64,000 bases of DNA from a virus: IMG/VR virus record IMGVR_UViG_3300008261_000001, positions 62,001 through 126,000 of that record; one strand, 5' to 3'. This document shows, piece by piece, positions 1 through 56,168 of the stretch; position 1 is the stretch's first letter; each line of letters starts with the position of its first letter. The position numbers and the translations under genes were made by a program. The notes under the pieces were generated by a model, which saw only the letters and a program-made list of their open reading frames with translations, made no database searches and was not told where the DNA came from.

Positions 1-23
1 AAACCGCCCTTACCCTTACCCTC

Positions 24-108
24 CATATAGATCTACCTTATCCCTTATCCTCCATATAGACCCATATCCCTTATCCGCATATAGACCCTTACCCTTATCC
101 CATATAGA
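24..108. repeat. four copies of CATATAGA in a pyrimidine-rich leader
   Basis: CATATAGA occurs at 24-31, 53-60, 78-85 and 101-108, so the copies start 29, 25 and 23 bases apart. They are separated by CCCTTATCC- and CCCTTACCC-like runs. On the minus strand this reads as TCTATATG followed by purine-rich GGATAAGGG segments. Similar TCTATATGGGG and TCTATATAAGGGG strings precede genes elsewhere (near 47090 on the minus strand and 41096 on the plus strand). It may be a tandem promoter or leader for a minus-strand gene beyond the left edge; no function is shown. Confidence 0.5.
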
Positions 109-120
109 CCGTCTTACATA

Positions 121-2510: not shown

Positions 2511-3095
2511 CTATATCAGAGAACCTAACTCTGTTGTTTGAAGTGTATAGGTTGAGCCTTGTGATGGTCTAGCCCAAGTCACCGTAAGACCCTCACCTCC
2601 ACCATACTCCTGCATTCTCGCCCTAAACGAATACTGAGTCCCTGCTGTCAAAGAAATCGTCCCTGTCATTGGACCACTCATCCCATGACCCCCATAATAA
2701 GAGACAACAAAGTTCCCCCCTATAAACAAATCGCTTCCGTCGTCAGAGTTGATGGCGAAGGTATATGTGCCTGTCTCTTGAGGGATAAAAGTTCCCTCAG
2801 CCATGAGGGAGAAATAATCTCCTGAGGCGAGCGTCACGCCCGCATTGGTTAGGCTCGTGTAGTTGGAGAAGTTTATAGCAGGTGTGGCGTTCAGAGTTCC
2901 TTGCCAAGAAAGAGTTGTGTTCGTGTACGCTGTATCAAAAAGCCTATCGAACTGAGCGGTCGTGGAAGGGTAGCTGTCGTACTGAGTCGTGCTTCCATTT
3001 CCTGCGTGAGTCCTATAGACCTTAACGCTTAGAGAACCCTCAACGAGTCCAATACGAGCATCGCTCAGTACGCCATGTATTAATCTGATTATCAT
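2511..3095 (-). CDS. PA14-domain adhesin with MIIR leader
   Basis: This 194-residue protein starts with MIIRLIHGVLSD, the leader shared with three neighbours, then carries a PA14-like beta-barrel over residues ~45-185. Diagnostic signs are the GTYTFAINSDDGSDLFI segment (the DDGSxLxI core of PA14, which usually binds calcium and glycans) and the later FRARMQEYGGGEGLTVTW strand pair. PA14 domains in phage fibres are thought to bind surface carbohydrates. Its ATG abuts the stop of the upstream LamG gene (TAAATG), so translation is probably coupled. It is likely an accessory receptor-binding component at the distal tail; the exact ligand cannot be told. Confidence 0.75.
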   Translation of the reverse strand: MIIRLIHGVLSDARIGLVEGSLSVKVYRTHAGNGSTTQYDSYPSTTAQFDRLFDTAYTNTTLSWQGTLNATPAINFSNYTSLTNAGVTLASGDYFSLMAEGTFIPQETGTYTFAINSDDGSDLFIGGNFVVSYYGGHGMSGPMTGTISLTAGTQYSFRARMQEYGGGEGLTVTWARPSQGSTYTLQTTELGSLI

Positions 3096-3830
3096 TTAGT
3101 GTCCATAAGGTGTCTTGGTGGCATCGTAGAAATCAGTAACCTCTGTACTTGATAAGGCTTTATTCCACACATGGAAAGCCCCTAGTCTAAATATAGACCC
3201 TGCACCGCTACCCATATGCGTGCTAGTTGGATACCCAAGCGTGTAGTACAACCCCACGCTACTTGTATTGTAAGGGGTCTGTCTTGCTTTCACGAGGCTT
3301 CCTGCAAGCTGTCCGTTTACATAACCCCTCAGAGTCGTGCCGTCATACACGAAGCCTACCAAATGCCAAGCGTTCAACCCCGCACTCACAGACGAACTTA
3401 CCCAATAACCACTTCCTATCGTGTATGGCCAGACAGAAAAGTGAGGGGTGCCACTTATCCACTCTATCTGAGAGTCAAACCAAGAACTATCAGGTGCGGT
3501 TGTCCCTTGCTCCGATAAAATCACACCGTTCGTTGTCGGATAAACCCAAGTCAAAACAGAAATAATCGTAGAGGTATTAGGGGGGGATAGATAGGGGTTC
3601 AGATTGGTCGTGGTGCGTACATAATTTGAAGTGCTACTATCCAAGCTCAAGTAGTTGGGCGTACCGCTGGTGTAAGGAACGCTCCCCACGAGTAATCCGT
3701 TATTTGTCCCATCAAGGTCGGTGATTGCAGTACCCGTTCCCCCATAGGAAGAAAGATTTTGAATATCCCAAGAGGTGATAAGCTCCCCTAGTTTTCTCGC
3801 TAACGCCCCATGAAGAACACGGATTATCAT
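3096..3830 (-). CDS. LamG/concanavalin-like lectin adhesin with MIIR leader
   Basis: This 244-residue protein has the MIIRVLHGALA leader followed by a LamG/pentraxin-type jelly-roll over residues ~40-235. Recognisable strands include the ISVLTWVYPTTNGVILSEQG segment, AWHLVGFVYDGTTLRGYVNGQLAG (the classic W-x-x-V-x-x-x-YDG-x-x-x-x-x-Y-x-NG core) and a closing FRLGAFHVWNKALSSTEV strand. LamG folds in phage tails bind host polysaccharide. The start codon overlaps the previous stop as ATGA (3827-3830), so translation is coupled. It is related to both halves of the two-LamG protein encoded just upstream, suggesting duplication within the fibre locus. Confidence 0.8.
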   Translation of the reverse strand: MIIRVLHGALARKLGELITSWDIQNLSSYGGTGTAITDLDGTNNGLLVGSVPYTSGTPNYLSLDSSTSNYVRTTTNLNPYLSPPNTSTIISVLTWVYPTTNGVILSEQGTTAPDSSWFDSQIEWISGTPHFSVWPYTIGSGYWVSSSVSAGLNAWHLVGFVYDGTTLRGYVNGQLAGSLVKARQTPYNTSSVGLYYTLGYPTSTHMGSGAGSIFRLGAFHVWNKALSSTEVTDFYDATKTPYGH

Positions 3831-5203
3831 GAGGGGTACTTATCCTTGTCGTTGTTGTAGTTCGCTAAGACTTCCGCCCCACTCAGAGCCTTACTATAAA
3901 TCCGTACCACCCCCACATCTCCATTCAGATATTGGCTGTACTCCCCATTGTTATAGCTCCCTATGTACAAGCCATTAGCCGTATTGAGTATGCTCGTGTA
4001 GCTCATAGCCGATGAGGTGTGTTCCACCCCATTTATGTAGAGATACATAAGATTATTCGTGTTATCAATCACGCCCACCACTTGATACCAAGTGCCTGTG
4101 GTGGCTTGGTATCCACTTGTGCTTGTAGCGGCAGAGCCGTTACCCACCTCAAGTCTGATTAGTCCTGAAGCGTTGCACCTGACTCCATAAGACACATCAG
4201 CCGAAGCCCCGCCATTATCAAACTTTCCAATCACCACCGCGTTTTGGATAACGGAGAGTCTTACCCATATCTCTATTGAGAAATCCCCCCCCGCTGGCTC
4301 TAGGAGGGCACTATCCGCTATGGCAATCTGAGAGCTAGAACCGTTGAAGCTGAAATAAGTTCCATTATCCACCACATTGCTCATCGTTCCCGTGAGCGTA
4401 TTAGGGGCAAGATTAAAGATAGAGTTCCCTGCATTTGGATAAGAGTATGAGTTGGAAGGCTCATAATAAAGCACAAGGGATTCGGTGATAAGGGGGGCGA
4501 TATTTCCTGCTCTAGCCGCGTAGTTTCGATAAACCTCCGAGTCTGAGAGGGCTACACTATATATGCGGATAATGCCTATCCGCCCATCGAAGTAAGTCCC
4601 ATCACCCTGATCGGTGGTGTCCTGAGAGCCAAAGTTCATGTAGAGGTTATTGGGTGATGTGTCCTCTGGAGAGTCCCAATTCACATTAACTGACCCTGCA
4701 AGGCTTCCATCTAGATAACCCTTCAGAGTCGTGCCGTCATAGGTCAATACGACTTGGTGCCACGCATTGAAGGATATATTAGATGTCGGACCTGTAGAGG
4801 TTATGGCGGATCCGTTCCAAAGACCATACTCAACCTTGCCCGCTACTATTTCTAAAGCTGAGTGGTGATACGCGGAGTTGGGGGTTTGCTGTGCGTTGTA
4901 CTGATACACCACACCATTTGCGGTGGGGTATATCCAAACCTCAGTTGTGTGTGTTTCTGTTAAGTACGCAGCCAGATTCTGAGTGGATATATTGTCGTTT
5001 GAGAAAGTGAGATAGTTAGTGGTGAACACAGGCGAGCCTGTTATGTCTCCATGAAGAAAGTTCCCTGAAATATCAGAGATAGTCGCACCTGAGTCCTTGT
5101 TGTAGGAGTTCTCATTAAAGGTGGAGAAATACACCACCAAGTTATTAAGGATAACGGACTGCTGAATAGCGGATATTATCCCATTGAGTGCTTTGATTAT
5201 CAT
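3827..5203 (-). CDS. double LamG-domain adhesin with MIIK leader
   Basis: This 458-residue protein begins MIIKALNGIIS and contains two LamG-like jelly-rolls, roughly residues 40-235 and 245-455. Each has the diagnostic core: AWHQVVLTYDGTTLKGYLDG in the first and TWYQVVGVIDNTNNLMYLYINGVEH in the second. Each closes with a GIIRIYSVALSDSEV- or GVVRIYSKALSGAEV-type strand. It overlaps the upstream 117-residue gene as ATGA. The first LamG is closer to the single-LamG neighbour than to its own second domain by eye, fitting repeated duplication and reshuffling. Probable role: carbohydrate-binding adhesin on the tail. No signal peptide is expected or seen. Confidence 0.8.
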   Translation of the reverse strand: MIIKALNGIISAIQQSVILNNLVVYFSTFNENSYNKDSGATISDISGNFLHGDITGSPVFTTNYLTFSNDNISTQNLAAYLTETHTTEVWIYPTANGVVYQYNAQQTPNSAYHHSALEIVAGKVEYGLWNGSAITSTGPTSNISFNAWHQVVLTYDGTTLKGYLDGSLAGSVNVNWDSPEDTSPNNLYMNFGSQDTTDQGDGTYFDGRIGIIRIYSVALSDSEVYRNYAARAGNIAPLITESLVLYYEPSNSYSYPNAGNSIFNLAPNTLTGTMSNVVDNGTYFSFNGSSSQIAIADSALLEPAGGDFSIEIWVRLSVIQNAVVIGKFDNGGASADVSYGVRCNASGLIRLEVGNGSAATSTSGYQATTGTWYQVVGVIDNTNNLMYLYINGVEHTSSAMSYTSILNTANGLYIGSYNNGEYSQYLNGDVGVVRIYSKALSGAEVLANYNNDKDKYPS

Positions 5204-5553
5204 AGGTTCTTATCTATGTGCTGTATGAGAAACCATTGGGGATTACCCAAAGCATTAAATCCTGCAATAACTCCTATTACCCCATAATCTCTCGTAATGG
5301 TGTCTGAGGCTGCCCCATCTATATTATAAGTCGTTGGACTATGCACGCATTGGATAATCACATTTGAAGTATGTGCTGCCCCTAGCTTGATGTAATAACA
5401 CCGACCTCTTACGGAGGCGATAGTGGGGTCGGGAAGATTAATCGTCTGTCCATTCTGAGCAATGTAAAAGAAATCAGTAGAGGTTAGCTGATAGGGGTCT
5501 GAGTTGGTTGCGGTTCTTATGGGGTGGAGATTAGAATCTACTTTGAAGGTCAT
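5200..5553 (-). CDS. small fibre-associated domain protein
   Basis: This 117-residue protein is a stand-alone copy of the N-terminal domain of the fibre protein at 7530-8726. Both share a spaced pattern: D-x-N-L-x-P near the start, SDPY, then GQTI-x-LP, GR followed by KLG-x-A-x-TS, and a late TI-x-G / ITxDYG segment. The fold is probably a small beta-sandwich seen as a repeat in phage fibre tips, but I cannot name the family. A Shine-Dalgarno GAGAGGCG precedes the ATG. It sits between two LamG adhesin genes and its stop overlaps the next start, so it is most likely a structural linker or fibre-tip subunit. Confidence 0.65.
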   Translation of the reverse strand: MTFKVDSNLHPIRTATNSDPYQLTSTDFFYIAQNGQTINLPDPTIASVRGRCYYIKLGAAHTSNVIIQCVHSPTTYNIDGAASDTITRDYGVIGVIAGFNALGNPQWFLIQHIDKNL

Positions 5554-5566
5554 GGTTCATCGCCTC

Positions 5567-6259
5567 TCACATGGTGGGGTAGCTGAAGGCTGTCCAAGAG
5601 ACACCCGTATTAGTGACGGTCTTATTCAGTCCGCTAGAGTCTGAAGAAACGCTTCCGCTCGTGGTTGCGAGGAGCAGGAGTTTGGTGTTGGCTACAGGAG
5701 AAATAGGTGTTTTAGGGGGGGTGAACGCCCCTGTGTAAAGAGCGGTGCCTTTGACCCAATGGAAGTTGGTTAAGTATCCACCGAAAGAAGCGTCTGCTGA
5801 GAGAGACAGCTCATTTCCAATAGTGAGAGAGTTAACGGACTCTGAGAAGTTGGTGGAGTTTGCGATAGACCCTATCTGGGTGCCATTCTTGAAGGCTCTC
5901 AGAGTTCCGCTTGAGCGAGACACAGCGAAGTGAACCCATTGGTTCTTAAAAGTTCCTGGTGAAAACCCTATGGCACTACCGCCTGCCCAAAAGTAGAAGA
6001 CCCCACCCTCTAAAGATACGCCTATGTTTGCACTTGGATAAGTTCCCATAGAGAACACACGAGGGAAAGCATTTGAGTCAGTCTGATACTGCCACCACTC
6101 TATGGTGAAGTCGCCTGAACCCATACGCAAATCGGCATCGTTGGCTACGACTAAATAATCTGAAGTCGAGCCATTGAAGTTCATAGTCCCCACAAGGGCA
6201 GGGGGTGTCTCGACAGTAAGGGTGTCAGAAACGATTCCATGTAGGGCTCTGATTATCAT
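5567..6259 (-). CDS. LamG-domain adhesin with MIIR leader
   Basis: The 230-residue product has the leader MIIRALHGIVSD and a LamG/concanavalin-like jelly-roll over residues ~25-200. Key segments are FNGSTSDYLVVANDADLRMG, GDFTIEWWQYQTD, WVHFAVSRSSGTLRAFKNG and an LTIGNELSL strand. This subtype, with FTIEWW and FTPP near the end, is common in phage tail fibres and virion adhesins. There is no strong Shine-Dalgarno; the start lies 6 bases after the stop of the upstream fibre gene, so translational coupling is likely. It is probably part of the adhesin set that decorates the fibre tips. Confidence 0.8.
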   Translation of the reverse strand: MIIRALHGIVSDTLTVETPPALVGTMNFNGSTSDYLVVANDADLRMGSGDFTIEWWQYQTDSNAFPRVFSMGTYPSANIGVSLEGGVFYFWAGGSAIGFSPGTFKNQWVHFAVSRSSGTLRAFKNGTQIGSIANSTNFSESVNSLTIGNELSLSADASFGGYLTNFHWVKGTALYTGAFTPPKTPISPVANTKLLLLATTSGSVSSDSSGLNKTVTNTGVSWTAFSYPTM

Positions 6260-6265
6260 GTGCAG

Positions 6266-7492
6266 TTATCCAATAATCATCCAATGAAGGACACAAGTCT
6301 GAACAGCACCTGTCGTGTTATTCACACCCAAATCCACTATGAAGTTAGCTCCACCATTTATTTCTCTAATCACAGGACTTCGTGTGACTAAGAATAGAGC
6401 GTCATTAGGGGCTTGTAGCGTGACTTGTATCATGCTATTCGCCCCTATAAACGCACCTACTACAGTCTGTTGGATAACGGCATTTACGCCTATACCCACA
6501 TTAAAGCTCTGCCTTCCATAAGCATTAGAGACAACCACACTACTAGATACCGAGAGGACTCCATCTTGAACATAATCTAAAAGATGAAGCTCTTTATTTA
6601 CCAAGACCGCCCCATTAGTCGCTCCCGCATTACCTGTTCCCGGTGTGAGTTCTATATCGCCTGCTGTGTGACCCGCACCCCTTCCTTCTCCGCCATTTAG
6701 ATTTACTGACCCCCCATTAGACACAGCGATGAACCCCCCAATACCACCACCAGAAATATTGACGCTCCCTGCGGTTGCATCCACATTGTCAATAACGGGG
6801 CCTGCCAGCAAGTTAATATCTCCCCCACTAAACCCTGCACCCCAAACAGGTCCAGAGTAAATATTAACATCTCCCCCATCGGCAGAGGGATTATCACCCG
6901 CAGAAATAGTGATTGCTCCCGCACTCGCTACACCCCCACCACGCCCCCCATAAATCCCTATATCTCCCCCATCACCTGTAGGACTATCTGAACCTCTTAT
7001 TTCAACAGAGCCTGCGGGTCCTACCCCAAGTCCATTTCCCGATTGTATTGTGATTGAGCCACCCTGTTCCCCCTCTACTGTGGCATCACCACCCAAGATA
7101 GAAATAGATGTACCCTGTCCAAAACCCGTGACTCCATCTCCACCTACTATTTTATATTCAGAGTCTTCTAAGCCCACACTTGCTGTGTACTTGAATAGAA
7201 GTTCTCCTGTTTCTCCATCAAAATCTTCTTGAGTAATATTTCTGAACCCCTCAAGGAAAGTTGTTGAGATAAGCCCTTGATTTGAAAAAGTCCGTATCGC
7301 CCCTTGCTCATACGAGTACTGCACTTGCTCAGAGAATATTAAGTCAACATAGCCATCCACAGGGACATATTGAGGTGGCTTTCGGTTATTAACCCTTCCG
7401 TTTTGGTCTTTTCCGTCATGGACATCGGATAAGAAAATAGACGAGTTTATAGTGTTGGAGTGGGTCACTCTCAGTAAAGTTCCATATGCCAT
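6266..7492 (-). CDS. fibre protein with Gly-rich beta-helical repeats
   Basis: The 408-residue product carries a central run (about 135-310) of short repeats of the form GG-x-hydrophobic-x-hydrophobic-x-x-G, such as GGSITIQSGNG, GGDIGIYGGRG and GGDVNIYSGP. This periodicity suits a thin beta-helix or glycine-rich fibre shaft. The first ~130 residues, with GKDQNGRVNNRKPPQYVPVDG, are likely a globular attachment domain. The last ~100, with two hydrophobic beta stretches, may be a tip or trimerisation domain. It lies between the LamG gene and the 398-residue fibre gene in the same operon. Receptor-binding or fibre-shaft function is inferred from sequence style and neighbours. Confidence 0.65.
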   Translation of the reverse strand: MAYGTLLRVTHSNTINSSIFLSDVHDGKDQNGRVNNRKPPQYVPVDGYVDLIFSEQVQYSYEQGAIRTFSNQGLISTTFLEGFRNITQEDFDGETGELLFKYTASVGLEDSEYKIVGGDGVTGFGQGTSISILGGDATVEGEQGGSITIQSGNGLGVGPAGSVEIRGSDSPTGDGGDIGIYGGRGGGVASAGAITISAGDNPSADGGDVNIYSGPVWGAGFSGGDINLLAGPVIDNVDATAGSVNISGGGIGGFIAVSNGGSVNLNGGEGRGAGHTAGDIELTPGTGNAGATNGAVLVNKELHLLDYVQDGVLSVSSSVVVSNAYGRQSFNVGIGVNAVIQQTVVGAFIGANSMIQVTLQAPNDALFLVTRSPVIREINGGANFIVDLGVNNTTGAVQTCVLHWMIIG

Positions 7493-7529: not shown

Positions 7530-8726
7530 TTAAGAAGCGGACAAGTCACCAAACAAGTACCAAGTGGTCGAAGTCCTCTTCACGAGCGTAGCCGCCCCAT
7601 ACTGACTAGAAATATATCTATTGCTAGACACCGAATAGAGGGTGTCGGAAGTAATAGCGATATTCACCTTGCCAGAGCCTAAACGAGCCACCACAATCTG
7701 TGTCCCTACAGGGAAGGCAACAGATGAGTTGGCAGGAATAGTGAGGGTGAGGTTAGAAGAGGAGTTGAACTCCACGAGCTTCCCTGCATCGGATAAAACA
7801 AGGGTGTAGCTTGAAGTCTGAGTAGAAATACCCAAAGCGGCTTTCTGTACGAACTCAGTTGTGGCTACCGTAGTGGAGTTATCCGTAAGAGTAGCGGTCG
7901 TACTCGTGATGCTTCCAAAAACCGCAGACCCTGCTGAACCCGAAAAGACTTCAGAGGAGTTGGTGGCATCAGGAATAAATGTGAAAGCAGACGCGGAGTC
8001 GTCATAGCCAAAGAAGCCCACTTTAGCAGCAGACCCATTGTGCCACCTAAACTCAATGCCCCTGTCCTTATTATCGTCAGATGAAGGGGCTGTGTCTCCA
8101 CCGAGAGTAAAGATAGGGTCATCTACGGTCGTGGTAGTGGAGTTGACGGTCGTGGTTGTTCCGTTTACGGTCACATTTCCTGTGACGACAAGATTTCCAC
8201 CTACGCTCAGACTATGTGTGGGGATTTCCCAAGTGTCATTGTCTTCATCCCACAAGAGTTTTGCGTTGGTGGCTTGAGTTCCGCGTTCCACTTCAAGCAC
8301 CACAGCGTCTGCTTCTTGAGAGGCACCTGTCCTATCCGCATTGATTAAAATACTTGGGTCTGTTGTGGTTGTCCTCTTGTTGACTCTGAGAGGTTTGTCG
8401 TTGGATAGAGTGATGCTCTCTTTAACGACTAACCACTTGCCCGTAGAAGCGATTAGCTCTACGAAGCCATAATCAGAAGTAATCTTGTAGCTTGTTCCAC
8501 CCTCTATCGTGTCGGTGCCTGACCTAGAAATAGTTACATCGGAGGTGCGAGCCTCACCTAGCTTGACTAAGAAAGACCTACCCACCATACTAGCGGTGAT
8601 TTCAGGAAGGGTGATAGTCTGCCCGCTGAGAGCCAAGTACTGCCCATCAGATAACCCTATGGTGTAAGGGTCACTTGTTGAGGCGACTTTTGTAGGCTTA
8701 AGGTTATTATCTACTAAGTATGTCAT
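7530..8726 (-). CDS. tail-fibre protein with two beta domains
   Basis: This 398-residue protein starts with a ~110-residue domain paralogous to the whole 5200-5553 product. A middle part follows (~120-290) that repeats the theme of the giant fibre next door: an EVERGTQATNAKLLWDEDNDTW segment, then GGNLVVTGNVTVNGTTTTVN. Its C-terminal ~100 residues (STQTSSYTLVLSDAGKLVEF onward) form another beta domain ending in a W-Y-L-F strand. A good Shine-Dalgarno (GAAGGAAG) precedes the ATG. The shared WDE repeat suggests it arose from a fragment of the 2658-residue fibre. Probable role: fibre or fibre-tip subunit. Confidence 0.75.
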   Translation of the reverse strand: MTYLVDNNLKPTKVASTSDPYTIGLSDGQYLALSGQTITLPEITASMVGRSFLVKLGEARTSDVTISRSGTDTIEGGTSYKITSDYGFVELIASTGKWLVVKESITLSNDKPLRVNKRTTTTDPSILINADRTGASQEADAVVLEVERGTQATNAKLLWDEDNDTWEIPTHSLSVGGNLVVTGNVTVNGTTTTVNSTTTTVDDPIFTLGGDTAPSSDDNKDRGIEFRWHNGSAAKVGFFGYDDSASAFTFIPDATNSSEVFSGSAGSAVFGSITSTTATLTDNSTTVATTEFVQKAALGISTQTSSYTLVLSDAGKLVEFNSSSNLTLTIPANSSVAFPVGTQIVVARLGSGKVNIAITSDTLYSVSSNRYISSQYGAATLVKRTSTTWYLFGDLSAS

Positions 8727-8748: not shown

Positions 8749-11700
8749 TTAGATGATGAACCAAGCAGTTCCATAAGCGATGAGGCTTAGGGTAGCACCT
8801 GCCGCGATGTCCTTAGTGAGTTCGCCCGCTATGGTCTGAGTGCCGTTCCCATCTACGGTGATGGTGTTTGTCCCCTTGTTGATTAACTGAAGGACATAGC
8901 CATCATAGGTAGAACCGCTGAGAGCAAAGAGGTTCAGAGTTCCTGCGGTCGCTCCGTTATTTAAGAAGTAAGCGTGCTTATTCTCATACGCTGTAGGTGC
9001 TGATAGGGTATAGGCATTGGTGACGAAGGTGGGTTCGACACACGAGTATCTTGCACCCTCAGAGGCTTTGGCAGTAATGACCCCATAAGAAGTCCCTGTG
9101 CCATTGTCCGCCATCCATCTATCTTCGCCTTCATCCCAAGTGAGCTTGGCGTTGGTGCTGTCTCCACGCTCTACCTCTATGGTCACATCTTCAGTAGCCG
9201 CAGGTGTTCCTGTTTGGTCGCTGTTGAGAAGGATAGAAGTCTTAGCAGAGGAGTTATCGCTTGAGGATTTAACTCTGAGATCTACGACTGCTGTGACTGA
9301 GCTTAGGTCAACCGAAGCGAGTTCTGAGTCTGAGGGCGTTACAGTAGTACCCTCAGAGTCAATCGTGGTTTCAGAACCGAAGAGAACGAACTTATCGTTT
9401 GAAGGCTGATAGACTAGCCCTGCGATGTAGTTTGTTCCTGCTTCTCGATATTGTCCGTAGAAGCCCACATGGTTGGCTGTTGTGTTATTGAGACCGAGGA
9501 AGAGGAGGGGGTCAGAGAGCTTAACAATAGAGCCGTTGCCCGTAATGATGCCACCGACCGTTAAGTCTGAAGTGATGGTTACGCTGTCGGGCAAGCCTAT
9601 GGATAATGTATCCGTACCCGTTCCGCTTACGGTGATTTCTTGGGCGTTGGCAGACTGAATAGTAAAGCTGTTGGTCGAACCCTGCTTGATAGCGTAGGTG
9701 TTTATGCTTACAAGCGTATCGTTGGAGTGAAGCACATTGTAGGCGTTAGTTCCATCATTGGAAATCATCCACCTATCTACGCCCTCATCCCACCTCAAGT
9801 AGGTATCGGTATTCGTGCCTCTATCCACATAGATGTAAGCGTCAACATCTGCCGCCGCGTTGACTACGCCTTGATTAAGAGTAAGCGTCTTGGTGGTAGC
9901 TATTGTGACATTGTCTTTGAAGGTGCCTGTACCTGTTATATCCAATCCGCCCGATTGAACGGTGATGCTCCCCCCTGTGATGAGCGTACCTGTGAAGTTG
10001 GTGTTTCCGTTAGTGGCATCCACCTCAAACACCACCGATCCGTTGTTAATAATGGATAAGTCAGTAGTACCTGTGGTGCTTGTAAGGGTGAGGGTGCCTT
10101 GAATAGATGTATTACCTGTGGTGTCAGCCACAACGAACTTATTCGTATCTACAGATATGCCACCATTAGCGTTGAGGTTGCCCGCTATCGTGGTCACGCC
10201 TGCATTGGTCACTCCAAACACCGCTGTGGGTACTGCGTTGTTTATGGTGAACCCAACATTGGATAAAGTCACCGCACCCTTAAACTCAGATGTAGAGACA
10301 GCCTCAAAGGTGTTGGTGGTTGTCTTACCCGTTGTGGTGAGGTTATCCGAGCCGAAGGATATCCCTGAGTTATTGGCGGTTGTGATAGAACCATCACTCA
10401 GAAGGAGAGAATTTAAGGCTACCCCAACAAGTAAATCGTTCTGTACTTCGACATTACCCGCACCTGTGAAAGTCCAATTGTTAGTGCCTTCATCCCAATA
10501 GAAGATAGCGTCTTCGCCCGCTGTGGGTCTAACTACGGTGATGCCGAAGTCGTGTGCGTCTAGCTCACCTGTTGAGTCAGAGTTGAAGGTGATTGCCCCT
10601 TGTGAGGGGGTGTCTATCGCCAACACACCACCCGTGGTCTTTATTGTCCCTGCGGATGTCACAGCACCCGCAGTACTTACCGAGAAGTTCTTGGTTAAAA
10701 CCCCAAGTGCCTCAGTACCTACGGATAACTCAGTAGAGGAGAAGAGCTTGCCCCCCTCTATCTTGAAGGAGTCCTCTGAGTCGTCCCACTTCAAGTAAGC
10801 GTCTACAGCACCTACCGCACCTCCATCCTCGACATGGATAAGTACAGCGTCAAAGTCTGCTCCATTAGGTACATCCCCCACCGCTCTGTCTGAGTTAAAC
10901 ACAACACCCGTATCCGAACCTGACTTCTTAATGTAAAGAGAATCGGATAGAGTTGTTATGCCTGTAATGGATAAAGTACTCGATAGAGAAGTCGCTTGAT
11001 GGAGCGTGATTAGCTCCGACCCGTTTGTCGTTGCGAGGGTCACATAGTCTAAGCCCGCTCCCGTTCCTTGACGGATAACCAACCCTGTCGCTTGGTTATC
11101 CGCCATTTCAACGATAAAGCCATCCGCGTCTGTGTTGGTGATTTTGTTCAGACTCACCACATCGGTTGTCACAACACCTGCTGTTGTGATTGTGGTTGTT
11201 GGGCTATTAGCTGAGTTTGCCCCACCTATGGACAAAGCGAGTCCTGCCGCCTTGCCTACAAGGTGTAAGCCTGAGGCGGAGTTGAGATTGATCTCATCTC
11301 TAGTCTCGTCCCAGCTCAATACAGCGTCTGCGGAGTCGCCCCTCTCAATCTTAATGAGGTTAGCGTCTTCTGCACCCGCTCCTGTCACATCAGCGTTAAA
11401 GATAATCCCATCTGTTAGAGACTTGTTTAAGAGCAAGTCACCGCTGAAAGTCACCCTATTGTTGGTCGTGTCCACAGCCAACACATCTGTGCCGTCAGCC
11501 TTCTCAACCACGAAGGCACTCGTGTTGCCTGTCTTAACATTTAAGGTGTTAAGGATAGAGGTCACACCCAAGTTGCTTACGCTAAATACGCTCGCTCCGA
11601 CATCAATACCCGCATTAGGCTCAAGCAGAGAAGAAATCGTAACCGCCTCTGTGCCGTCAGCCGTATTGATATTCAGTACATCTGTTCCATTAGCCTTCTC

Positions 11701-14700
11701 AACCACAAACGCTGTAGCAGAGTTCAGAGTTATCTGAACATCCCCCGTTGTAGCGAGCTTATAGGTCGCACCATCTACGGTGAACTTATCCGTATCTACA
11801 GCCAAACCACCATTCGCGTTCACAACACCTGATGAAGTAATCGTTGAAGTTGTGGTGAGCGTTCCAACCTTCAAAGCACCCCAAGTGCTAGGCTCAGTAA
11901 AGTCAGTAGCTGTAGAGGCTACATTGGTAAGACCCATCTTGAAGACAGAGTCGTTCTCGTCAAAGAAGAACACCGCATCGTCTTCGTCACTTCCACGCTC
12001 CATGAATATCCCGATGTCGCGTGTGTTATTAGGAGCCGCACTCGCTCCCTTATTCAAACGGATAACTGAGTCCGACACCTCTAGGTCAGTTGAGTTAATC
12101 GTGGTGAGTGTCCCATTCACCGTCATATTGGTGCAAGTGACGCTCCCTGTCGTTAAGAGGTTATTCGCCACGAAGTCTATAGTGGCTGTCGCGGAAGTAA
12201 TCTCGCCATTATTTATTGTAAAGTCCGCTATTGTGTGACCCTCTGCCTCTGCCGTTACCACCCCTGTTACACCTAGCGTACCTTCCACGGTGGTGTCACC
12301 CGTAGCGGAAGCCACAATGAACTTAGAAGCACCGACTGAGAACTCGCCCTCAGAGTTGAGCTTATTGGAAACAACCCAGCTATCTGCACTCTCATCCCAA
12401 AGGAGATAAGAGTTAGTCGCAGTACCTCTCTCGACCTCTATCCGGGCGTCCCTCTCTGCATTAAGGGCAGTCGCATCAGAGTTGAGAAGGACTACAGCCG
12501 ATTGATTATTTGCGTCACCCGCTAAATCAGCAGACTTAATAGATAACACACCCGATAGCTCTGTATTGCCTGAAGCAGAAGCGATAGTAAAGACCTTATC
12601 GCCATCTCTCACACCAACCGAGAAGTTCCCTTCAGAGTTTAAGCCATCTGTTACCGTGAAGCTCTCGTTAGTATCCCAAGAAATAGTGGCGAAGCTACCA
12701 CCCTTATTTACCCTAACAAGTGTAGCGTCAGCATTACCCACCGCCTCAGAACGGAAAGTCACTCCATTAGAGGAAGCCGTTGTAAGGTCAAGAGAGCCTA
12801 CTAGTGTGGTCTTACCCGTCACATCAAGGGTATTTGAGACCCCTACGCTCCCTGTCACATCAAGGGTCTTAGCTGGAGCGTTATTAGCGATACCCACTCT
12901 ATCCGTAGAGGCATCCACAAATAAGAGATGAGTCTGAGTATCACCCTCTACGCGGAAATCTGAGTCCGCTCCCGTTTCGTTAATAACCACACCACCATTT
13001 AGAGTCGTCACACCTGTGATAAGCGTGTCCCCCACCACATCTAGCTGAACGCTTGGTGTGGCGTTATTGATACCCACTCTGTCTGTAGAAGCATCGGTAA
13101 AGATTAAGTGAGTCTGATTGTCGCCTTCTACTCGGAAGTCTAAGTCTGCTCCGTTTTCGTTTACGACCACCAAGCTATTAAGAGCCACACCTCCTGTAAG
13201 GGTAGCGGTAGAGGTAATGGATAAGGGCTTGCTGATTGTGACGAGTTCAGAACCATCGGTGGTGTCAAACTTCAAGTAAGAGTTAGCCCCTTGAAGGACT
13301 TCAAACGCTCCCGCTTGGTTATCCGTCATAGAAACTTGGATAGTCGAAGCGTCAGCCGAAATAGTGTCTAAGGCTATATCCCCCACATTGGTGATATTCC
13401 CCTCAGAGACATTTAAGCTATCTACGGTGGTAGCCCCAAAGTCAGCGGTCCCCGTTGTTGAGATGTTATTGTCGTTGAAGCTGATAGCGTCTGTAGCCGA
13501 GTCTATATTTCCATTAGTGATGGTCAGATTTGCAATCACCGAAGAAGCGGGAGCCTCAATCAGCTTTCCAAAGACAACCTTCTCTGTGCCATTTGTAGTC
13601 ACGAAGGTCTGATAAGCATTTAGACCCTCGGCTATCTGTAGAGAAGTCGCTTGGTTATCCGTTAAAGACACAGCGATGATGTTGGTCTGAGCCTCGATTA
13701 CACCTACTGAAAGGGTGTGAACATCTGTGATGTCATTATCGGATAGATCTAGCGTGTTATTAAGAGTGGTTACACCTGTGACTTCAAGGGTTCCACCGAT
13801 GGTGGTATTTCCCGAAGCACTCTGTATGCTGAAGGTCTGAACATCGTTAATATCAGTAAAGGCTAACGAGCCATCCTTTATGGTGACTGAGTTAGAGACA
13901 TTAACGACTGAAAGGGTAGCAGTGCCTGTGGACTCAATGTCGGTGGCTGAAATATCCCCTGTTGTCGTGAGGTCATCATCACCAAAGCTGAACCCTGCTA
14001 CATTGGTGGTGGTCATTTCTCCGTTGTTGAAGGTTATATCAGCTAAGAGATGACCTTCAGCGGCGGTAGAAATAACTCCCGCATTGCTCAACGAGAAGGT
14101 CGCTCCGACAATCAAGTCGCCTGCGACAACGGATAAGTTGCCTGTAGTCACCTCAAGGGCATCTGAAAGCGTGAAGGTATCAGACCCTGCGTTCCAAGAG
14201 AGGTCCGAGAAGCCTTCCGCACCTCTGTTGACGCGAAGGATAGTGGCGTTGCCATCTAAGCCACCACCAGCTATCTCAGACCTAAAGGTGATGCCGTTAG
14301 TGGCGGCGGTGGTTATATTCACACTCTCAGTATAAGTGGTGATACCCTCAATGGTGAGGTTATCTTGCACCTTGAGGTTATTGGATAAAACCCATTCTGA
14401 GTCGGCTTGTACCCAAGTGAAAGTTGTGTAAGTGCCTACACCTGTACCAACAGCGAGGGCGACCGCGTTTTGAGCTGGAGTTCCTGTGCCATCCGCCACA
14501 TCAGAGTTAAGGATAATCAGAGGGTTGGTTGCGTCTGCGGTAGCCGCTTGGATAAGAAGGGCTTTATCCGTAGTGATAGTGGCATTCTCATTAAGGATAG
14601 TATCCCCATCAGCGGTCAAAGTACCCGCTACGGTGAGTGTTCCTGTCCCTGTAGTTGAGATATTTCCTGATGTGGTGAGATTGTTGTCGTTGAAGGATAT

Positions 14701-16725
14701 GTTATTATCAACAGCCGTTGTCTCAATAAGCCCATCGGAGATGGTTATATCTCCGATAGTGCTTCCTGAAGCGAGGGTCGATGTACCCACAACCTCAAGT
14801 GTGCCTTCGATTAGAGTGTCGCCGGTATCTGTAGCTACCGAGAACTTGGTGTTCTCATTTACATCTTGGATAGCGAAGGTCTTTGTTTCGCCAATGATGG
14901 TGGTGTTTCCATTAAGGGTAGTGCCATCACCTGCTGTGCCGTTGACGACAAGATTTCTTCCTACAACGAGGTCTTGTCCGATGTTGGCATCTACAGCCAC
15001 CTCAAAGTTATTGGATAAGACCCATTCTGAGTCAGCTTGAACCCAAGTAAGGGTAGCTGTGGTAGCCGCACCTGTCTTGACGGCTAGTACGGCATTTTGA
15101 GCGGGAACACCTGCTCCGTTTACATTGGAGTTAAGAAGGATAAGGGGGTCAGCGGGGTTGGTGGCTACCTGTACGAGCAAAGAAGCGTCAGTCGTAAGGG
15201 TAGCGTCAGAGTTAAGGGTAGTCGCCCCATCAACCTCAAGGGTGGTTGTGGTGGAAATATCACCGAGGCTGGAGATAGAGGCGGTGGGGGCTCCGAGGTT
15301 TGAGCCTACATCAAGACCACCTACGCCTTGAAGCGTATGAGAGAGAGCGAACTTCTCAGAGCCTTCGTCCCAAGTGAAAGACGAAGGTCCAAAAGCTCCG
15401 CGTGTAACTGAGATGATGTTCGCGTTTGCTTCCTCGCCTGCACCATCCAAGTCAGCGTTGATGACGATGGCGGAGATGGAGGGGTTTGCCTTAATGGATA
15501 AGTTGTCATCGAGGGTGGTGATGCCCGTTACGGCTAGTGTGCCTTCGATGATTGTGTTTCCATTATCTGAGTCCACCGAGAACTTAGAGGCACCCGCACT
15601 CGTCTTAATAGAGAAGGTTGAGTTGTCTGCTTGGAGGGTGGTGTCCCCATTAACGACTAGGGAAGACGAGGCGTTAAGGGTAGCGAGGTTAAGAGTACCT
15701 TTGGTGAGGGTAGTGGTAGCGGAGAAGTCTGTGGTGGCTCCCGTAGCTCCGTTAGCAGTTCCCAAGAAGAACTGATCATTACCTTCATCCCAATAGATAA
15801 CAGCGGGGTTTTCGGTTGAGCCTCTAGTAAATACAAAGCCTGCATCGGTGGAGGCGTTAGGGTTAGCGGAGGCATTACGAGCGAGTTCAATAACGGGGTC
15901 TTCAACGGATAAGTTATCCGTATTGACGGTAGTTGTGGTGCCGTTAACGATGAGGTTGCCTGTGACGGTGGCGTTGCCTGTAATAGTGGCATTACCGCCT
16001 ACGGAGAGGATATTAGTGATTAAGACTTCAGAGCCTGCACCACCGATGGTGAGGGTGGTGGGGTTTCCGAGTCCGTCATCGGTCATGGAGGCGGCGAGGG
16101 AAGCGTCAGCGTTGGTGAAGTTAATACCTGTCATACCTGAGAGGGTAGTGGAGGTATTTCCGAGTTCTATTTCGGTTGAGCCGATAGTGACAGAGTCGTT
16201 AACGAGCTTGTTATTGGCAATAGTTGCGAGGGCGATGTCCCCGTCAACGATAGTGTTGGCTACGATTTGGACTTCGCCTGTATTGGATAGAGTGACATCG
16301 CCTGTAATGGAAACATTTTTCCATTTATCATCATTAGCACCTGCGTCATTATCATAGACGAGGATTTGGGCGTTGGCTTTATCTACGATGTGGGTATCAC
16401 CGAGTTCTTCGAGGAGAATATCTGAAGCACCTGCGGAGTCAACATATGCTTTTGTGGCGACATCTTGAGGGAGGGTAGGGTCAGCCACATTGGATAGTTT
16501 TACGGTCACATCGCCATCGTTGTCGGTGAAGTCAACGGAGGTGGCTGGGTCAAAGTCAATATTGGATAAGTCGGTACGGGCTGTTTCAGTACCACCTGCG
16601 GTGGCTCCATCGTGTACGCGGATGCTATTGCGTGTGGTATCTACGGTAATCTCACCCGACGCACCGATAAAGGCGTTGTTTTCAGCCGAAGTACCCCTTC
16701 TAAGTTGAACTCTACGAACGGACAT
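8749..16725 (-). CDS. giant tail-fibre protein (2658 aa) with repeats
   Basis: The N-terminal ~45 residues (VQLRRGTSAENNAFIGASGE, then DTTRNSIRVHDG) match the RRGT-type head domain found at the start of many phage fibres and of the Mtd tropism determinant. The remaining ~2600 residues are long runs of related beta-rich units. Two recurring elements are a GDL-x-V-x-GT-T-x-x-x-hydrophobic unit and a unit ending in ERG-x-x-x-NA-x-LxWDE-x-x-D-x-W. Such an architecture fits a long side fibre or a beta-helical shaft. The C terminus has a final beta domain (GNGTQTIAGELTKDIAAG). It starts after a stem-loop carrying the Shine-Dalgarno. No enzymatic motif is visible. Length is several times that of typical long tail fibres. 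Confidence 0.85.
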   Translation of the reverse strand: MSVRRVQLRRGTSAENNAFIGASGEITVDTTRNSIRVHDGATAGGTETARTDLSNIDFDPATSVDFTDNDGDVTVKLSNVADPTLPQDVATKAYVDSAGASDILLEELGDTHIVDKANAQILVYDNDAGANDDKWKNVSITGDVTLSNTGEVQIVANTIVDGDIALATIANNKLVNDSVTIGSTEIELGNTSTTLSGMTGINFTNADASLAASMTDDGLGNPTTLTIGGAGSEVLITNILSVGGNATITGNATVTGNLIVNGTTTTVNTDNLSVEDPVIELARNASANPNASTDAGFVFTRGSTENPAVIYWDEGNDQFFLGTANGATGATTDFSATTTLTKGTLNLATLNASSSLVVNGDTTLQADNSTFSIKTSAGASKFSVDSDNGNTIIEGTLAVTGITTLDDNLSIKANPSISAIVINADLDGAGEEANANIISVTRGAFGPSSFTWDEGSEKFALSHTLQGVGGLDVGSNLGAPTASISSLGDISTTTTLEVDGATTLNSDATLTTDASLLVQVATNPADPLILLNSNVNGAGVPAQNAVLAVKTGAATTATLTWVQADSEWVLSNNFEVAVDANIGQDLVVGRNLVVNGTAGDGTTLNGNTTIIGETKTFAIQDVNENTKFSVATDTGDTLIEGTLEVVGTSTLASGSTIGDITISDGLIETTAVDNNISFNDNNLTTSGNISTTGTGTLTVAGTLTADGDTILNENATITTDKALLIQAATADATNPLIILNSDVADGTGTPAQNAVALAVGTGVGTYTTFTWVQADSEWVLSNNLKVQDNLTIEGITTYTESVNITTAATNGITFRSEIAGGGLDGNATILRVNRGAEGFSDLSWNAGSDTFTLSDALEVTTGNLSVVAGDLIVGATFSLSNAGVISTAAEGHLLADITFNNGEMTTTNVAGFSFGDDDLTTTGDISATDIESTGTATLSVVNVSNSVTIKDGSLAFTDINDVQTFSIQSASGNTTIGGTLEVTGVTTLNNTLDLSDNDITDVHTLSVGVIEAQTNIIAVSLTDNQATSLQIAEGLNAYQTFVTTNGTEKVVFGKLIEAPASSVIANLTITNGNIDSATDAISFNDNNISTTGTADFGATTVDSLNVSEGNITNVGDIALDTISADASTIQVSMTDNQAGAFEVLQGANSYLKFDTTDGSELVTISKPLSITSTATLTGGVALNSLVVVNENGADLDFRVEGDNQTHLIFTDASTDRVGINNATPSVQLDVVGDTLITGVTTLNGGVVINETGADSDFRVEGDTQTHLLFVDASTDRVGIANNAPAKTLDVTGSVGVSNTLDVTGKTTLVGSLDLTTASSNGVTFRSEAVGNADATLVRVNKGGSFATISWDTNESFTVTDGLNSEGNFSVGVRDGDKVFTIASASGNTELSGVLSIKSADLAGDANNQSAVVLLNSDATALNAERDARIEVERGTATNSYLLWDESADSWVVSNKLNSEGEFSVGASKFIVASATGDTTVEGTLGVTGVVTAEAEGHTIADFTINNGEITSATATIDFVANNLLTTGSVTCTNMTVNGTLTTINSTDLEVSDSVIRLNKGASAAPNNTRDIGIFMERGSDEDDAVFFFDENDSVFKMGLTNVASTATDFTEPSTWGALKVGTLTTTSTITSSGVVNANGGLAVDTDKFTVDGATYKLATTGDVQITLNSATAFVVEKANGTDVLNINTADGTEAVTISSLLEPNAGIDVGASVFSVSNLGVTSILNTLNVKTGNTSAFVVEKADGTDVLAVDTTNNRVTFSGDLLLNKSLTDGIIFNADVTGAGAEDANLIKIERGDSADAVLSWDETRDEINLNSASGLHLVGKAAGLALSIGGANSANSPTTTITTAGVVTTDVVSLNKITNTDADGFIVEMADNQATGLVIRQGTGAGLDYVTLATTNGSELITLHQATSLSSTLSITGITTLSDSLYIKKSGSDTGVVFNSDRAVGDVPNGADFDAVLIHVEDGGAVGAVDAYLKWDDSEDSFKIEGGKLFSSTELSVGTEALGVLTKNFSVSTAGAVTSAGTIKTTGGVLAIDTPSQGAITFNSDSTGELDAHDFGITVVRPTAGEDAIFYWDEGTNNWTFTGAGNVEVQNDLLVGVALNSLLLSDGSITTANNSGISFGSDNLTTTGKTTTNTFEAVSTSEFKGAVTLSNVGFTINNAVPTAVFGVTNAGVTTIAGNLNANGGISVDTNKFVVADTTGNTSIQGTLTLTSTTGTTDLSIINNGSVVFEVDATNGNTNFTGTLITGGSITVQSGGLDITGTGTFKDNVTIATTKTLTLNQGVVNAAADVDAYIYVDRGTNTDTYLRWDEGVDRWMISNDGTNAYNVLHSNDTLVSINTYAIKQGSTNSFTIQSANAQEITVSGTGTDTLSIGLPDSVTITSDLTVGGIITGNGSIVKLSDPLLFLGLNNTTANHVGFYGQYREAGTNYIAGLVYQPSNDKFVLFGSETTIDSEGTTVTPSDSELASVDLSSVTAVVDLRVKSSSDNSSAKTSILLNSDQTGTPAATEDVTIEVERGDSTNAKLTWDEGEDRWMADNGTGTSYGVITAKASEGARYSCVEPTFVTNAYTLSAPTAYENKHAYFLNNGATAGTLNLFALSGSTYDGYVLQLINKGTNTITVDGNGTQTIAGELTKDIAAGATLSLIAYGTAWFII

Positions 16726-16811: not shown

Positions 16812-19800
16812 TTAAGAGACAAGGACTCCGTAGTCTTCTTGAGCGTACACGACAACATCACTGAAGCCTGTTCCGTTCCAATCTGTAGAGAAATCAACAC
16901 CAGGCATAAAGACTGAACTTACCTGTCCATAGTCGATTGTCTCTATGACTCGCCCAAGCACAATAAGGTCGGCTACGGCATTTACATTTTGTTGAGTAGG
17001 TTCGCTTAGTAAGAGTATTTCGTTGGGTGAGGTGCCAACATCATAATCGCTCGCTGTACCCAAGAGTGTGGGTACTAGCTTGTTTAACCCGCCTGCGGTC
17101 GAATACCTTAAAACTTGTTTATCCAATGTGGGGGCTGAGTCCACATCGGTGAGGTCTGAGGTTTGGATAGAGAGGGCTACGCTTATGGTGTTGTTCAAGT
17201 CGTCGTAGCTGAAGTCTAATGAAGTGACTCCCGTATGTGTCCCATTATCGAGGGCTGTGGTCACAAGGCTTCTGACTTGGTCAGCGGTCAGTCCCCCATC
17301 AGGGGTGGATATAATGAAACCACCGAGTCCACCATTAGCAGTTTCGTCCCAAATGATGGTATTTCCATCCTCTATACCTGTTAGGTCAACATCTGAGTGA
17401 AGCCCTATAGAGCCGAGGGCGGTTAGGTTAACACCAGATACAGCGGGCAAACCTGTTGCTCCGAGTACAGGTATTTGTCCATCGGCTGTACCTACATCAT
17501 AGGAGCTGGCTGTACCAAGCCCATCCACTACGCTCTTTATTTGCCCATCGAGAACAAAGTCAGCATTGGATAAACTTGTGGTTGCACCTAAGTAGTTAGA
17601 ACCCACAGGGGTTATGTAAGAACCATCTGTATCTAAGCCTGCTCCAAGTTGCGTATCGTCAATCTCGTTTTGGATATCTGTAAAGGTATCGGATAAGTTC
17701 TTAATCTCTGTGTCCAAGAGAGAGTCAGCGGAGAATAAGCTAGTAGCACCTGCCAAGTAGTTAGAACCTACTGGTGCAGTATAGGTGCCATCCACACCGA
17801 GCCCAGCACCGAGTTGTGTGTCGTCTAACTCGTCTTGTAAGTCTGAGGTAAGGTTATTTAAGTTCGTCTCTAAGCCGAAGAGTGCGTTGTCTAGATTTCC
17901 TAAAGATGTGTGGTGTGATTCGGTGTCGTTTATGAAGTGTGTGGAGGAATAAACGGGTAGTGACCCATCTACACCTACACCTACGGAAAGCTGGGTGTTA
18001 TCTAGCTCTAGTTGTAGACCACCCTCTACACCTGTAGCCCTTAGGATTTCAGCGTCCAAGTTATCCGATACGCTCTTTATTTGACCATCGAGAATCGTAT
18101 CGGCATTGAATAGGCTTGTGGCTATGTTTATGTAGTTGGATGCAAGGGGTGGTGCATAAGTGCCATCTCCATCTAAGCCCGCACCTGTGACAACATTGGA
18201 TAGTTGAGTGCTTATGTTTCCAACATCCGTCTGTGTGTTGGATAGAGAGGTAGCTACATCGAATATGCTCTGGTCGAGAGTGCCTATGGCATCGTGATGA
18301 GATTGCAGATCAGTGATGTAGTTGGTGGCTGTGTAAACAGGTCTGGATGCGTCTACATTCAGCCCAAGAGAAGATAAAGAAGTATCCAATAAGTCGGAGG
18401 TGTTTCCGAGGCTTATGTCGAGGGCGAGGTCAGCACTTGCCAAGCTCGTAGTTAGATCTAAGTAGTTAGAGCCTACAGGGACGATGTAAGAGCCATCGGT
18501 GTCTAAGCCTGCACCCTCTTGAGTCGCATCGAGTTCAGCTAAAGCCCCGCCTGTTGCGTTATTGACGGCAGTATCCAATAAGGACAGAGCCTCGTGGTGG
18601 GAAGTGCCGTTGGGTAGGTAGAAGTTAGAGGTGTAATCAGGTAATGACCCATCAGCGTTTAAGCCCAAAGAAGTCTGTGTGTTATCAAGCTCTAGCTGAA
18701 TATCCCCCTCTACATCTGTTGCTCTGTTAATCTCATTCAGCAGAGCGGTATCGAGAGCTTTAATCTCGGTGTCCAATAGGCTATCCGCATTGAACAAGCT
18801 CGTGGCGAGCCTTATGTAGTTGGATGCCCCATCTGCTGTGTATGTACCATTAGCGTTTAAGCCAGCACCACCTTGTGTGTTATCTAGTTCTAGCTGTAGA
18901 TCTCCCTCTACACCTGTTGCCCTTAGTATTTCTGCATCTAGGTTATCCGATACTCCCTTAATGGCTCCATCTAAAGCAAAGTCTGCATTGGATAAACTCG
19001 TGGTAGCCCCTAAGTAGTTAGAACCGACAGGAGTTATGTAAGAACCATCCGTATCTAAGCCCGCCCCCTCTTGCGTGTCATCTAGTTCTAGCTGTAGATC
19101 TCCCTCTACACCAGTAGCTCTGAGGATTTCAGCATCTAGGTTATCCGATACTCCCTTAATAGCTCCATCAAGGGTCGCATCGGCATTGGATAAACTTGTA
19201 GTTGCTCCTAAGTAGTTAGTGCCTACAGGGACTAAATAAGAACCATCTGTATCCAAGCCAGCACCAGATTGGGTGTTATCAAGCTCTAGCTGTGCGTCAG
19301 ATAGGGCAGAAGATCTGACCCAGTTAGTTCCGTTCCATGCTAGGACTTGACCCGCAACAGAGGGATCCGTTGTATCAACATCGGATAGTGCGTTAATGGA
19401 TAAGTCTCGTACCCATTCGGTCGTAGCGACTAGGCTTGAGTCTTCAGCAGAGGGTGGGGTAAGAGCCGAGATTGTACCAGTGGTTGAAAGAGCGGAAGCA
19501 CCAAAGGTTATTGTGTTATTGGCGGATAGTATAGACCCAGCGGAGAGGGTTAGTTGAGCTGGGTCTCCTACGCCTATTAGAGCAGAGGTTGAGGCTTTGA
19601 GGGTGGATAGATTTAAGGGTTGGAGGGTGGGGTTGAGGGGAGAAAAATCGATTGTGTCGTCATTAGCGTTGGGGGCTGTTGTGAGGAAGTACTCATTAAC
19701 GCCCTCGTCCCAATAGAACGCGGCAGGGTCTTCGGTAGAGCCTCTTGTAAAGATAAAGCCTGTGTCTGTAGAAGCGTTGGGGTCAGCATCGGCTCCGTTG

Positions 19801-23939: not shown

Positions 23940-24128
23940 GACTCGAACCTCCAAAAGATTGGATACTTTAAGGGGTGTTCATCATTAAAAGATTATTGTT
24001 TCTTATAGGTGTATGTAGTTCTGCCCCCTCCAGAGTGTTGTTGATGTAGTCCGAGTGTCGATTATCGACCAAGAGGGGGGGGGTTAATACATACAAATAC
24101 TTAGCTTAAAAGAGAAAGGTGGGGTAGT
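23940..24128. promoter_or_regulatory. divergent intergenic region with palindrome and G9 tract
   Basis: This region separates the minus-strand fibre operon from the plus-strand replication genes, so it should carry promoters for both. It contains a perfect 6-bp inverted repeat, GTCGAT-T-ATCGAC, at 24057-24069, a candidate operator. A run of nine G (24075-24083) follows shortly after; a CCCCCTC at 24024-24030 could pair with it. The plus-strand gene is preceded by GAAAGGTGGGG. No clear -35/-10 pair is evident. Confidence 0.4.
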
Positions 24129-32802: not shown

Positions 32803-33216
32803 ATGTTTAAGAACTATCATTGGACAGTGGTCGAAGCTGAAAATGCTTGTACGGGTTTTAAGCTCGCCAAACAAAGCGACAACACCTTCGAGAACTTCAA
32901 CCGATACTATATCGTCAACCCCAACACACAAATCCTTTTTGAGGAAATCGAGTACTTGATCGAGAGTACAAAGGACACCCGCTCCCCATCTCGGTCTCGC
33001 TCCTGTTGTTGCTTTGTCCTTCAAGGAAATAAGTACTTCTTCTATGTCAAGAAGTCCTCCTTAGTCAAAGCGGACAAGCTGTTTATCCAAAACATCGGCA
33101 GGATACTGCATGGAGGTGGCGACTTAACCGAGGACGACTTAAATAAGCTCGCTTCCTCTGTACAGAGGCTCAAGGCTTCCCTTAAAAGCACACCCAAGAA
33201 AGCGGATGGTCGATGA
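32803..33216 (+). CDS. unknown 137-aa protein
   Basis: This 137-residue product starts 2 bases after the chaperonin stop and ends overlapping the first methyltransferase module as ATGA, so it is translated within the same operon. It has a beta-rich centre (FNRYYIVNPNTQILFEEIEYLIE, CCCFVLQGNKYFFYVKK) with a three-cysteine run, and a basic C-terminal helix. The segment from 66 to 85 resembles the core of small phage proteins of unknown function. No motif allows a functional call. Confidence 0.5.
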   Translation: MFKNYHWTVVEAENACTGFKLAKQSDNTFENFNRYYIVNPNTQILFEEIEYLIESTKDTRSPSRSRSCCCFVLQGNKYFFYVKKSSLVKADKLFIQNIGRILHGGGDLTEDDLNKLASSVQRLKASLKSTPKKADGR

Positions 33217-33833
33217 TAATCACCCTGTTGAGAAAGCCCCTAGACGGGAGCGTAGCTGAGAACGCCTTACAGCATGGCTGTGGGGCTATCAATATAGACG
33301 CTACAAGAGTAGGTTTTGTGAATGGAGAAAACCCCTCCGCCTCCTCACGAGAGGCGTACACTCCCAATCACTCGGCAGTGGCGGACATGAACGCGAGCGG
33401 TGTCATCTATTCCGATCCAACACGGCAACTCGGCAGGTGGCCCGCTAACTTTATCCTTAACCACCTAGAGAGCTGTGAGCTAAAAGGTACTAAGAAAGTT
33501 AAAGGGGCGATAAGCAAACCTTCGGTGGGATACAAAGCTAAGACCTCCACCTCTTGGTTCAACTCTAAAGATGGTATTCATAGGGTTGGTCATGCGGATG
33601 AAGATGGGAATGAAGAAGTAGCGGATTGGGCTTGTGTAGAGGGTTGCCCTGTCCAAGAGCTAGACCAACAAAGTGGACATCTGAAAAGTGGGAAGATGGG
33701 TGCTAAGTCATATCAAATGTGGGGGGTAAATGGGATATATGGGGGAGGTAAAGAACACCCTGCGACATATTATGGAGATGAGGGTGGTGCTTCTAGGTTC
33801 TTCATGCAGTTTAAGAAAGACCCAGAAGAATGA
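33213..33833 (+). CDS. split DNA methyltransferase, middle module (copy A1)
   Basis: The 206-residue product corresponds to the middle third of beta-class phage DNA methylases, the part between the DPPY core and the SAM-binding motif. Landmarks are KPLDGSVAENALQHGCGAIN at 8-27 (usually ARKPL..TVAENVL..GTGGIN), INIDATRV, RWPANFILNHLE, and GGASRFFMQFKKD at the end. It lacks both DPPY and FxGxG motifs, so alone it cannot be a methylase. In intact enzymes this region helps recognise the target. Unlike the other two A copies, it is not preceded by a B module. It overlaps B1 as ATGA. Confidence 0.8.
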   Translation: MIITLLRKPLDGSVAENALQHGCGAINIDATRVGFVNGENPSASSREAYTPNHSAVADMNASGVIYSDPTRQLGRWPANFILNHLESCELKGTKKVKGAISKPSVGYKAKTSTSWFNSKDGIHRVGHADEDGNEEVADWACVEGCPVQELDQQSGHLKSGKMGAKSYQMWGVNGIYGGGKEHPATYYGDEGGASRFFMQFKKDPEE

Positions 33834-55882: not shown

Positions 55883-55884
55883 AA

Positions 55885-56166: not shown

Positions 56167-56168
56167 TC

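Follow-up and report, generated by a model that had tools for sequence, protein, structure and literature searches.

Why should four small lectin-like proteins of one phage, built on different domains, begin with nearly the same dozen residues? The question is raised by a gene cluster at positions 2511-6259 of the window, the 64,000-nucleotide stretch analyzed here, which covers bases 62001-126000 of the 290,179-bp virus record IMGVR_UViG_3300008261_000001 (G000). An earlier note, made from the sequence alone, had described a MIIxxLxG leader on four genes there and read it as a docking or assembly tag that lets adhesins be swapped. We find that this leader is conserved as protein, that such tags are specific to each phage, and that the lectin bodies behind them have been exchanged. 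We consider it probable, if well short of certain, that the leader acts as a docking peptide, specific to this phage, at the N-terminus of interchangeable virion lectins.

A leader conserved at the protein level

All four open reading frames (ORFs) are present on the minus strand. They encode a LamG protein of 230 residues (type 1, LamG-1; 5567-6259, leader MIIRALHGIVSD), a double LamG protein of 458 residues (3827-5203, leader MIIKALNGIISA), a second type of LamG protein of 244 residues (LamG-2; 3096-3830, leader MIIRVLHGALAR), and a PA14-domain lectin-like protein of 194 residues (2511-3095, leader MIIRLIHGVLSD). The Laminin_G_3 profile (PF13385) scores above its curated cut-off in the first three, with two stretches in the double protein, and the PA14 profile (PF07691; 4e-16) does so in the fourth, as does GLEYA. 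Domains of different kinds, one PA14 and three Laminin_G_3, therefore stand behind the leaders, as the earlier note had proposed. Delimited by pattern scans and codon comparison, the leaders occupy codons 1-12 (6224-6259, 5168-5203, 3795-3830, and 3060-3095, respectively) and follow the pattern MII[RK]xx[HN]G, then two hydrophobic residues, then S/A. The pattern first described needs only slight correction: three proteins have L and one has I at position 6, and the split at position 7 is three H to one N.

The leader is confined to these genes. A six-frame scan of the window found MII[RK] at the start of these four ORFs only, and a DNA pattern for M-I-I-[RK]-x-x-[HN]-G matched four times in the whole 290-kb record and never in a reversed control; a looser whole-record pattern returned the same four matches. 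The pairwise BLOSUM62 scores over residues 2-12 sum to 186, a value reached by none of 200,000 random quadruples (maximum 172) drawn from 467 viral N-termini, a pool that still contained paralogues. Among the other gene pairs of the window, 10 of 1275 equal or exceed the score of the weakest tagged pair; a likely source is paralogous ORFs, for example the methylase-like repeats. The similarity ends after about 12 residues, and the four proteins show none over residues 15-26 (scores of -14 to +2).

Within the leader, agreeing residues are often encoded by different codons (Ser by AGC, TCC, or TCT; Leu by CTG or TTA; Arg by AGA or CGT), which indicates that selection acts on the protein sequence. 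Codons 1-3 (ATG ATA ATC) are the only ones identical in all four genes, and this may reflect the overlap of start and stop codons in two of them: the start codons at 3827-3830 and 5200-5203 overlap the upstream stop as ATGATAA, creating the tandem stops TGA TAA, and the double LamG gene shares its ATGA in this way with the gene that precedes it. One could therefore ask whether the common start serves translational coupling at the nucleic-acid level, with ATGATAATC providing the ATGA overlap and the upstream tandem stops. We regard this as highly improbable, since it would account only for codons 1-3, while residues 4-11 agree through different codons, the overlap is absent from two of the genes, and the tags of the two other phages described below use other codons.

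Tags follow the phage, bodies follow the domain type

Do other phages place such leaders before LamG or PA14 domains? A search of IMG/VR viral contigs did not turn up the exact leader beyond G000: all 24 matches were attributable to chance, and since the pattern demanded both His at position 7 and an AR-type codon as codon 4, some true cases would be missed. The same pattern also failed to pick up two phages whose tags differ, namely a related phage with a 316-kb record (G001, also L087) and a 40-kb contig of another phage group (G002, also L017). G001 has counterparts of many window genes at 34-74% identity, including the clamp (40%), a PD-(D/E)XK nuclease (55%), an SbcD-like protein (56%), and the 27283 gene (74%). 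Three of its lectins are tagged MF[LK]ATHGI[IVL]KP. Two of these lie in tandem (MFLATHGIIKP and MFLATHGIVKP), and the third (MFKATHGILKP) is the counterpart of LamG-1 and begins 12 nucleotides past a fibre gene. A relaxed pattern pointed to six places in G001, comprising the three lectins and positions 249, 67508, and 82969, which were taken as unrelated (the first, once translated, begins MIIVHHGLGV, and the other two lie inside longer ORFs). G002, which in its neighbouring genes is like L003 and L005-L007 and unlike the G000 phage, has two lectins tagged MILT[GS][IY]GMIKNV that begin MILTGIGMIKNV and MILTSYGMIKNV. The G001 lectin that starts with MFLATHGIVKP carries a PA14 domain inserted within its LamG domain, and the order LamG front half, PA14, LamG back half was seen in two phages (L087:5566-6843 and L017:2423-3676).

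The earlier note had held that a lack of similar leaders on the lectins of other phages, together with the lack of a predicted partner, would count against its idea; similar short leaders do exist on LamG and PA14 proteins of G001 and G002. Every lectin ORF shorter than 500 residues and above the Pfam cut-off bears the tag of its own phage (four in G000, three in G001, two in G002). These nine proteins, which are not fully independent, served for a crossing test of tag against body. Left out of it were a 2492-residue G000 ORF with two LamG matches, untagged according to the whole-record pattern, and G002 ORFs of 982 and 1152 residues with weak LamG matches.

The tags sort by phage and the bodies by domain type. 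The two ranges of tag scores do not overlap: pairs within a phage score at least 22 (mean 37.1, 10 pairs), and pairs from different phages at most 21 (mean 7.8, 26 pairs). Body scores are reversed, averaging 195 within a phage and 372 between phages. In a label permutation, 17 of 20,000 shuffles reached the observed difference, the lowest frequency that groups of four, three, and two allow. For example, the body of LamG-2 is identical to that of its G002 counterpart at 172 of 228 positions with a tag score of 0, and to that of its G001 counterpart at 124 of 230 positions, again behind a different leader. Similarly, LamG-1 and the MFKATHGILKP protein share 105 of 212 body positions with a tag score of 12. 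Conversely, the PA14 protein and LamG-2 of the same phage have unrelated bodies and a tag score of 33. Overall, bodies are 50-75% identical across phages though their tags do not match, whereas within a phage the tags match and most bodies do not. That related lectins carry each phage's own tag points to a plug that allows adhesins to be swapped in each phage, and the swapping part of the earlier proposal is thereby well supported.

Could plain paralogy produce this arrangement? The four genes would then descend from one ancestor by duplication, and the leader would be a part that has not yet diverged or is kept alike by gene conversion, with no role in docking. Two of the proteins, LamG-2 and the double LamG, are indeed paralogues (35% identity), and the nearly identical tag codons of the three G001 genes fit such a history. 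The PA14 and LamG bodies, however, are unrelated (10 of 32 positions in the local alignment), the agreeing residues in G000 differ in codon, including Ser AGC against TCC and TCT, and bodies common to several phages bear other tags. Duplication alone is therefore an unlikely account. Tandem LamG genes with common N-termini also occur in L131 and LR756501.1, but in these the resemblance extends over the entire proteins.

How the leader could act

In the mechanism that we propose, each lectin would consist of a small globular LamG or PA14 domain and a free tail of about 12 residues, made up of two or three hydrophobic residues, an H/N-G turn, two more hydrophobic residues, and then S/A or K. A virion protein of the same phage would offer a single kind of receiving site for this tail to insert into, and any lectin body behind the tail would be taken into the particle. 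With the tail kept, bodies could then be duplicated, fused, nested, or gained from other phages. Once on the particle, the lectins presumably bind cell-surface glycans. As for the receiving site, our guess is a tail fibre, perhaps its tip domain. The lectin genes follow a minus-strand run of fibre genes (16812-23954, 8749-16725, 7530-8726, and 6266-7492), in which 8749-16725 encodes a 2658-residue fibre with an N-terminal Mtd_N domain (Pfam) and 7530-8726 a fibre protein with PHROG tail-fibre matches, whose C-terminal tip domain, ending ATLVKRTSTTWYLFGDLSAS, is the candidate docking partner. The start of one tagged G001 gene 12 nucleotides past a fibre gene favours the docking reading.

A different role for the leader would be export or self-assembly, that is, sending the lectins to the host envelope or driving trimerisation, with no docking on the virion. 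A search for PA14 returned 38 loci in viral contigs, and in 27 of them (L073-L086, L089-L096, L099-L101, L103, and L104) the place of the leader is taken by a hydrophobic N-terminus that, judged by eye, resembles a signal peptide, as if these relatives were exported by the host and not built into virions. The leaders themselves are not signal-like. Across the tags of the window, G001, and G002, the best nine-residue Kyte-Doolittle mean is 1.5-2.2 and the longest hydrophobic run 3-4 residues, compared with 2.7-3.6 and 4-9 in nine signal-like N-termini of relatives. A Sec signal peptide was likewise rejected, as the first 30 residues contain no long hydrophobic core. A self-assembly motif, in turn, would need no phage specificity. 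Taken together, we judge export or self-assembly distinctly unlikely.

The docking reading has parallels among characterized phages. One paper (PMC6872550) describes short conserved N-terminal peptides on the receptor-binding proteins of phages K1-5, K1E, and SP6 and of Klebsiella phages of the KP34 type; those proteins have depolymerase tailspikes as their bodies and a known adapter with T4gp10-like domains. As in those phages, we see the same short N-terminal peptide on differing bodies of one phage and a peptide specific to the phage group, the tags of G000, G001, and G002 being different. The bodies here, in contrast, are small LamG or PA14 lectins, three or four per genome. Since the bodies are of another class than depolymerases and the search for an adapter came back empty (see below), we regard the present system only as one that works alike and do not assign it to that class. 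A second parallel is the tip adhesin gp38 of T2-like phages, which sits on the long tail fibre gp37; according to PMC12892980, a chimera had to restore N-terminal compatibility with gp37. As with gp38, a small adhesin would be joined to a fibre by its N-terminus, though attachment to a fibre is putative here. In that account, the exchanged N-terminal part comprises 113 residues and the body is a polyglycine-helix sandwich, as opposed to about 12 residues and jelly-roll-type lectin domains in our case.

A third parallel emerged from two LamG matches in T4-like uncultured viruses. The motif MPI[ST]QILLT stands at an ORF start in 18 of 20 pattern matches (L049-L068; some are near-identical, and one is truncated where its stretch ends). 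In 12 of the 18, this leader is followed by four or more consecutive Gly, and LamG was present in nine of the ten proteins scanned. In the nine loci read, the gene begins nine nucleotides after the upstream ORF. The three upstream long fibres that were checked start with Mtd_N, as 8749-16725 does, and the fibre tips weakly resemble that of 7530-8726 (29-30 of 100 positions identical in two, 22 of 97 in the third). Both systems thus combine a short shared leader, varied bodies, and a gene behind a long Mtd_N fibre with a related tip. The T4-like loci differ in having one tagged gene per locus read, a leader shared across contigs, and a different leader sequence. A literature search of open-licence PMC papers found none on short leaders of phage LamG or PA14 lectins.

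Several observations weigh against the proposal, whose docking half is inferred and names only a candidate partner. For the gene that comes right after the fibre cluster, the noted docking on fibre proteins is plausible; in G001, however, about 26 kb separate two of the three tagged genes from that cluster. The 7530-8726 tip is identical at 71 of 99 positions to the tip of the G001 fibre encoded 12 nucleotides before the tagged LamG gene, despite strongly different tags; this absence of co-variation speaks against the fibre tip as the partner. An adapter of the T4 gp9/10 type (PF07880) was found in none of the three records, with a model that spans only the N-terminal part of gp9/10. Homology to the K1-5 endosialidase undecapeptide was rejected, as equally good scores are reached by 27 to 300 of 660 N-termini. 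The near identity of the tag codons in G001 also means that recent DNA copying could explain the sharing in that phage. An AlphaFold2 model of the PA14 protein with 15 relatives (mean predicted local distance difference test score, pLDDT, 85.2) favours the proposal in placing residues 1-14 (pLDDT below 50) outside the folded domain, which begins at about residue 17, but this low score is partly expected, because at most one other aligned row (L095) extends much into the leader stretch. The LamG-2 model (mean pLDDT 39.9) was not used.

If the docking reading holds, a 12-residue tag would mark the small lectins that belong on the particle in uncultured large phages, so that the sequence alone would reveal a phage's adhesin set, and it would give a direct view of adhesin bodies moving between phage groups while their attachment stays local. 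The crossing test, in which the tag follows the phage and the body follows the domain, can be used on other phages to find tags. A bolder version, which we offer tentatively and consider doubtful, is that the tagged lectins of one phage compete for the same sites, making virions random mixtures of adhesins and giving one clone many specificities, with new bodies recombined in behind the tag from unrelated phages.

Neighbouring genes and other features of the window

Between the fibre genes and the lectins lies an ORF for a repetitive, glycine-rich protein of 408 residues (6266-7492, minus strand) with no Pfam or PHROG match. This gene separates the lectins from the fibre in the window, whereas in G001 one of the three tagged genes stands directly behind the fibre gene. 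Within the lectin cluster, 5200-5553 (minus strand) encodes a single-domain protein of 117 residues without a leader, which has no Pfam or PHROG match and is 48% identical over 98 residues to the N-terminal domain of 7530-8726; it is possibly a fibre-tip module or an adapter. Small free single-domain proteins related to fibre domains occur in both fibre clusters, the G001 examples being 55728-56060 and 56117-56479 (L153). As a candidate obligatory partner, 5200-5553 has related domains in G000 and G001, though none in the G002 fragment.

On the far side of the lectins lies the gene 1543-2472. Its homologue in G001 is near an apparent capsid gene group (by eye, L128), and likewise that in LR745208.1. 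As a route to relatives, this gene led only to distant 485-kb phages (LR745208.1, L071, and L072), and the ORFs read there had no leader. A short repeated motif (ccttaccc/cttatcc...catatagacc) occupies the left end of the window (1-120). At 33213-37400, tandem ORFs alternate, three beginning MIITLLRKPL and four beginning MIEIKIGDCVDRLKDL with an SDPPYG motif, and represent repeated DNA-methylase-like halves.

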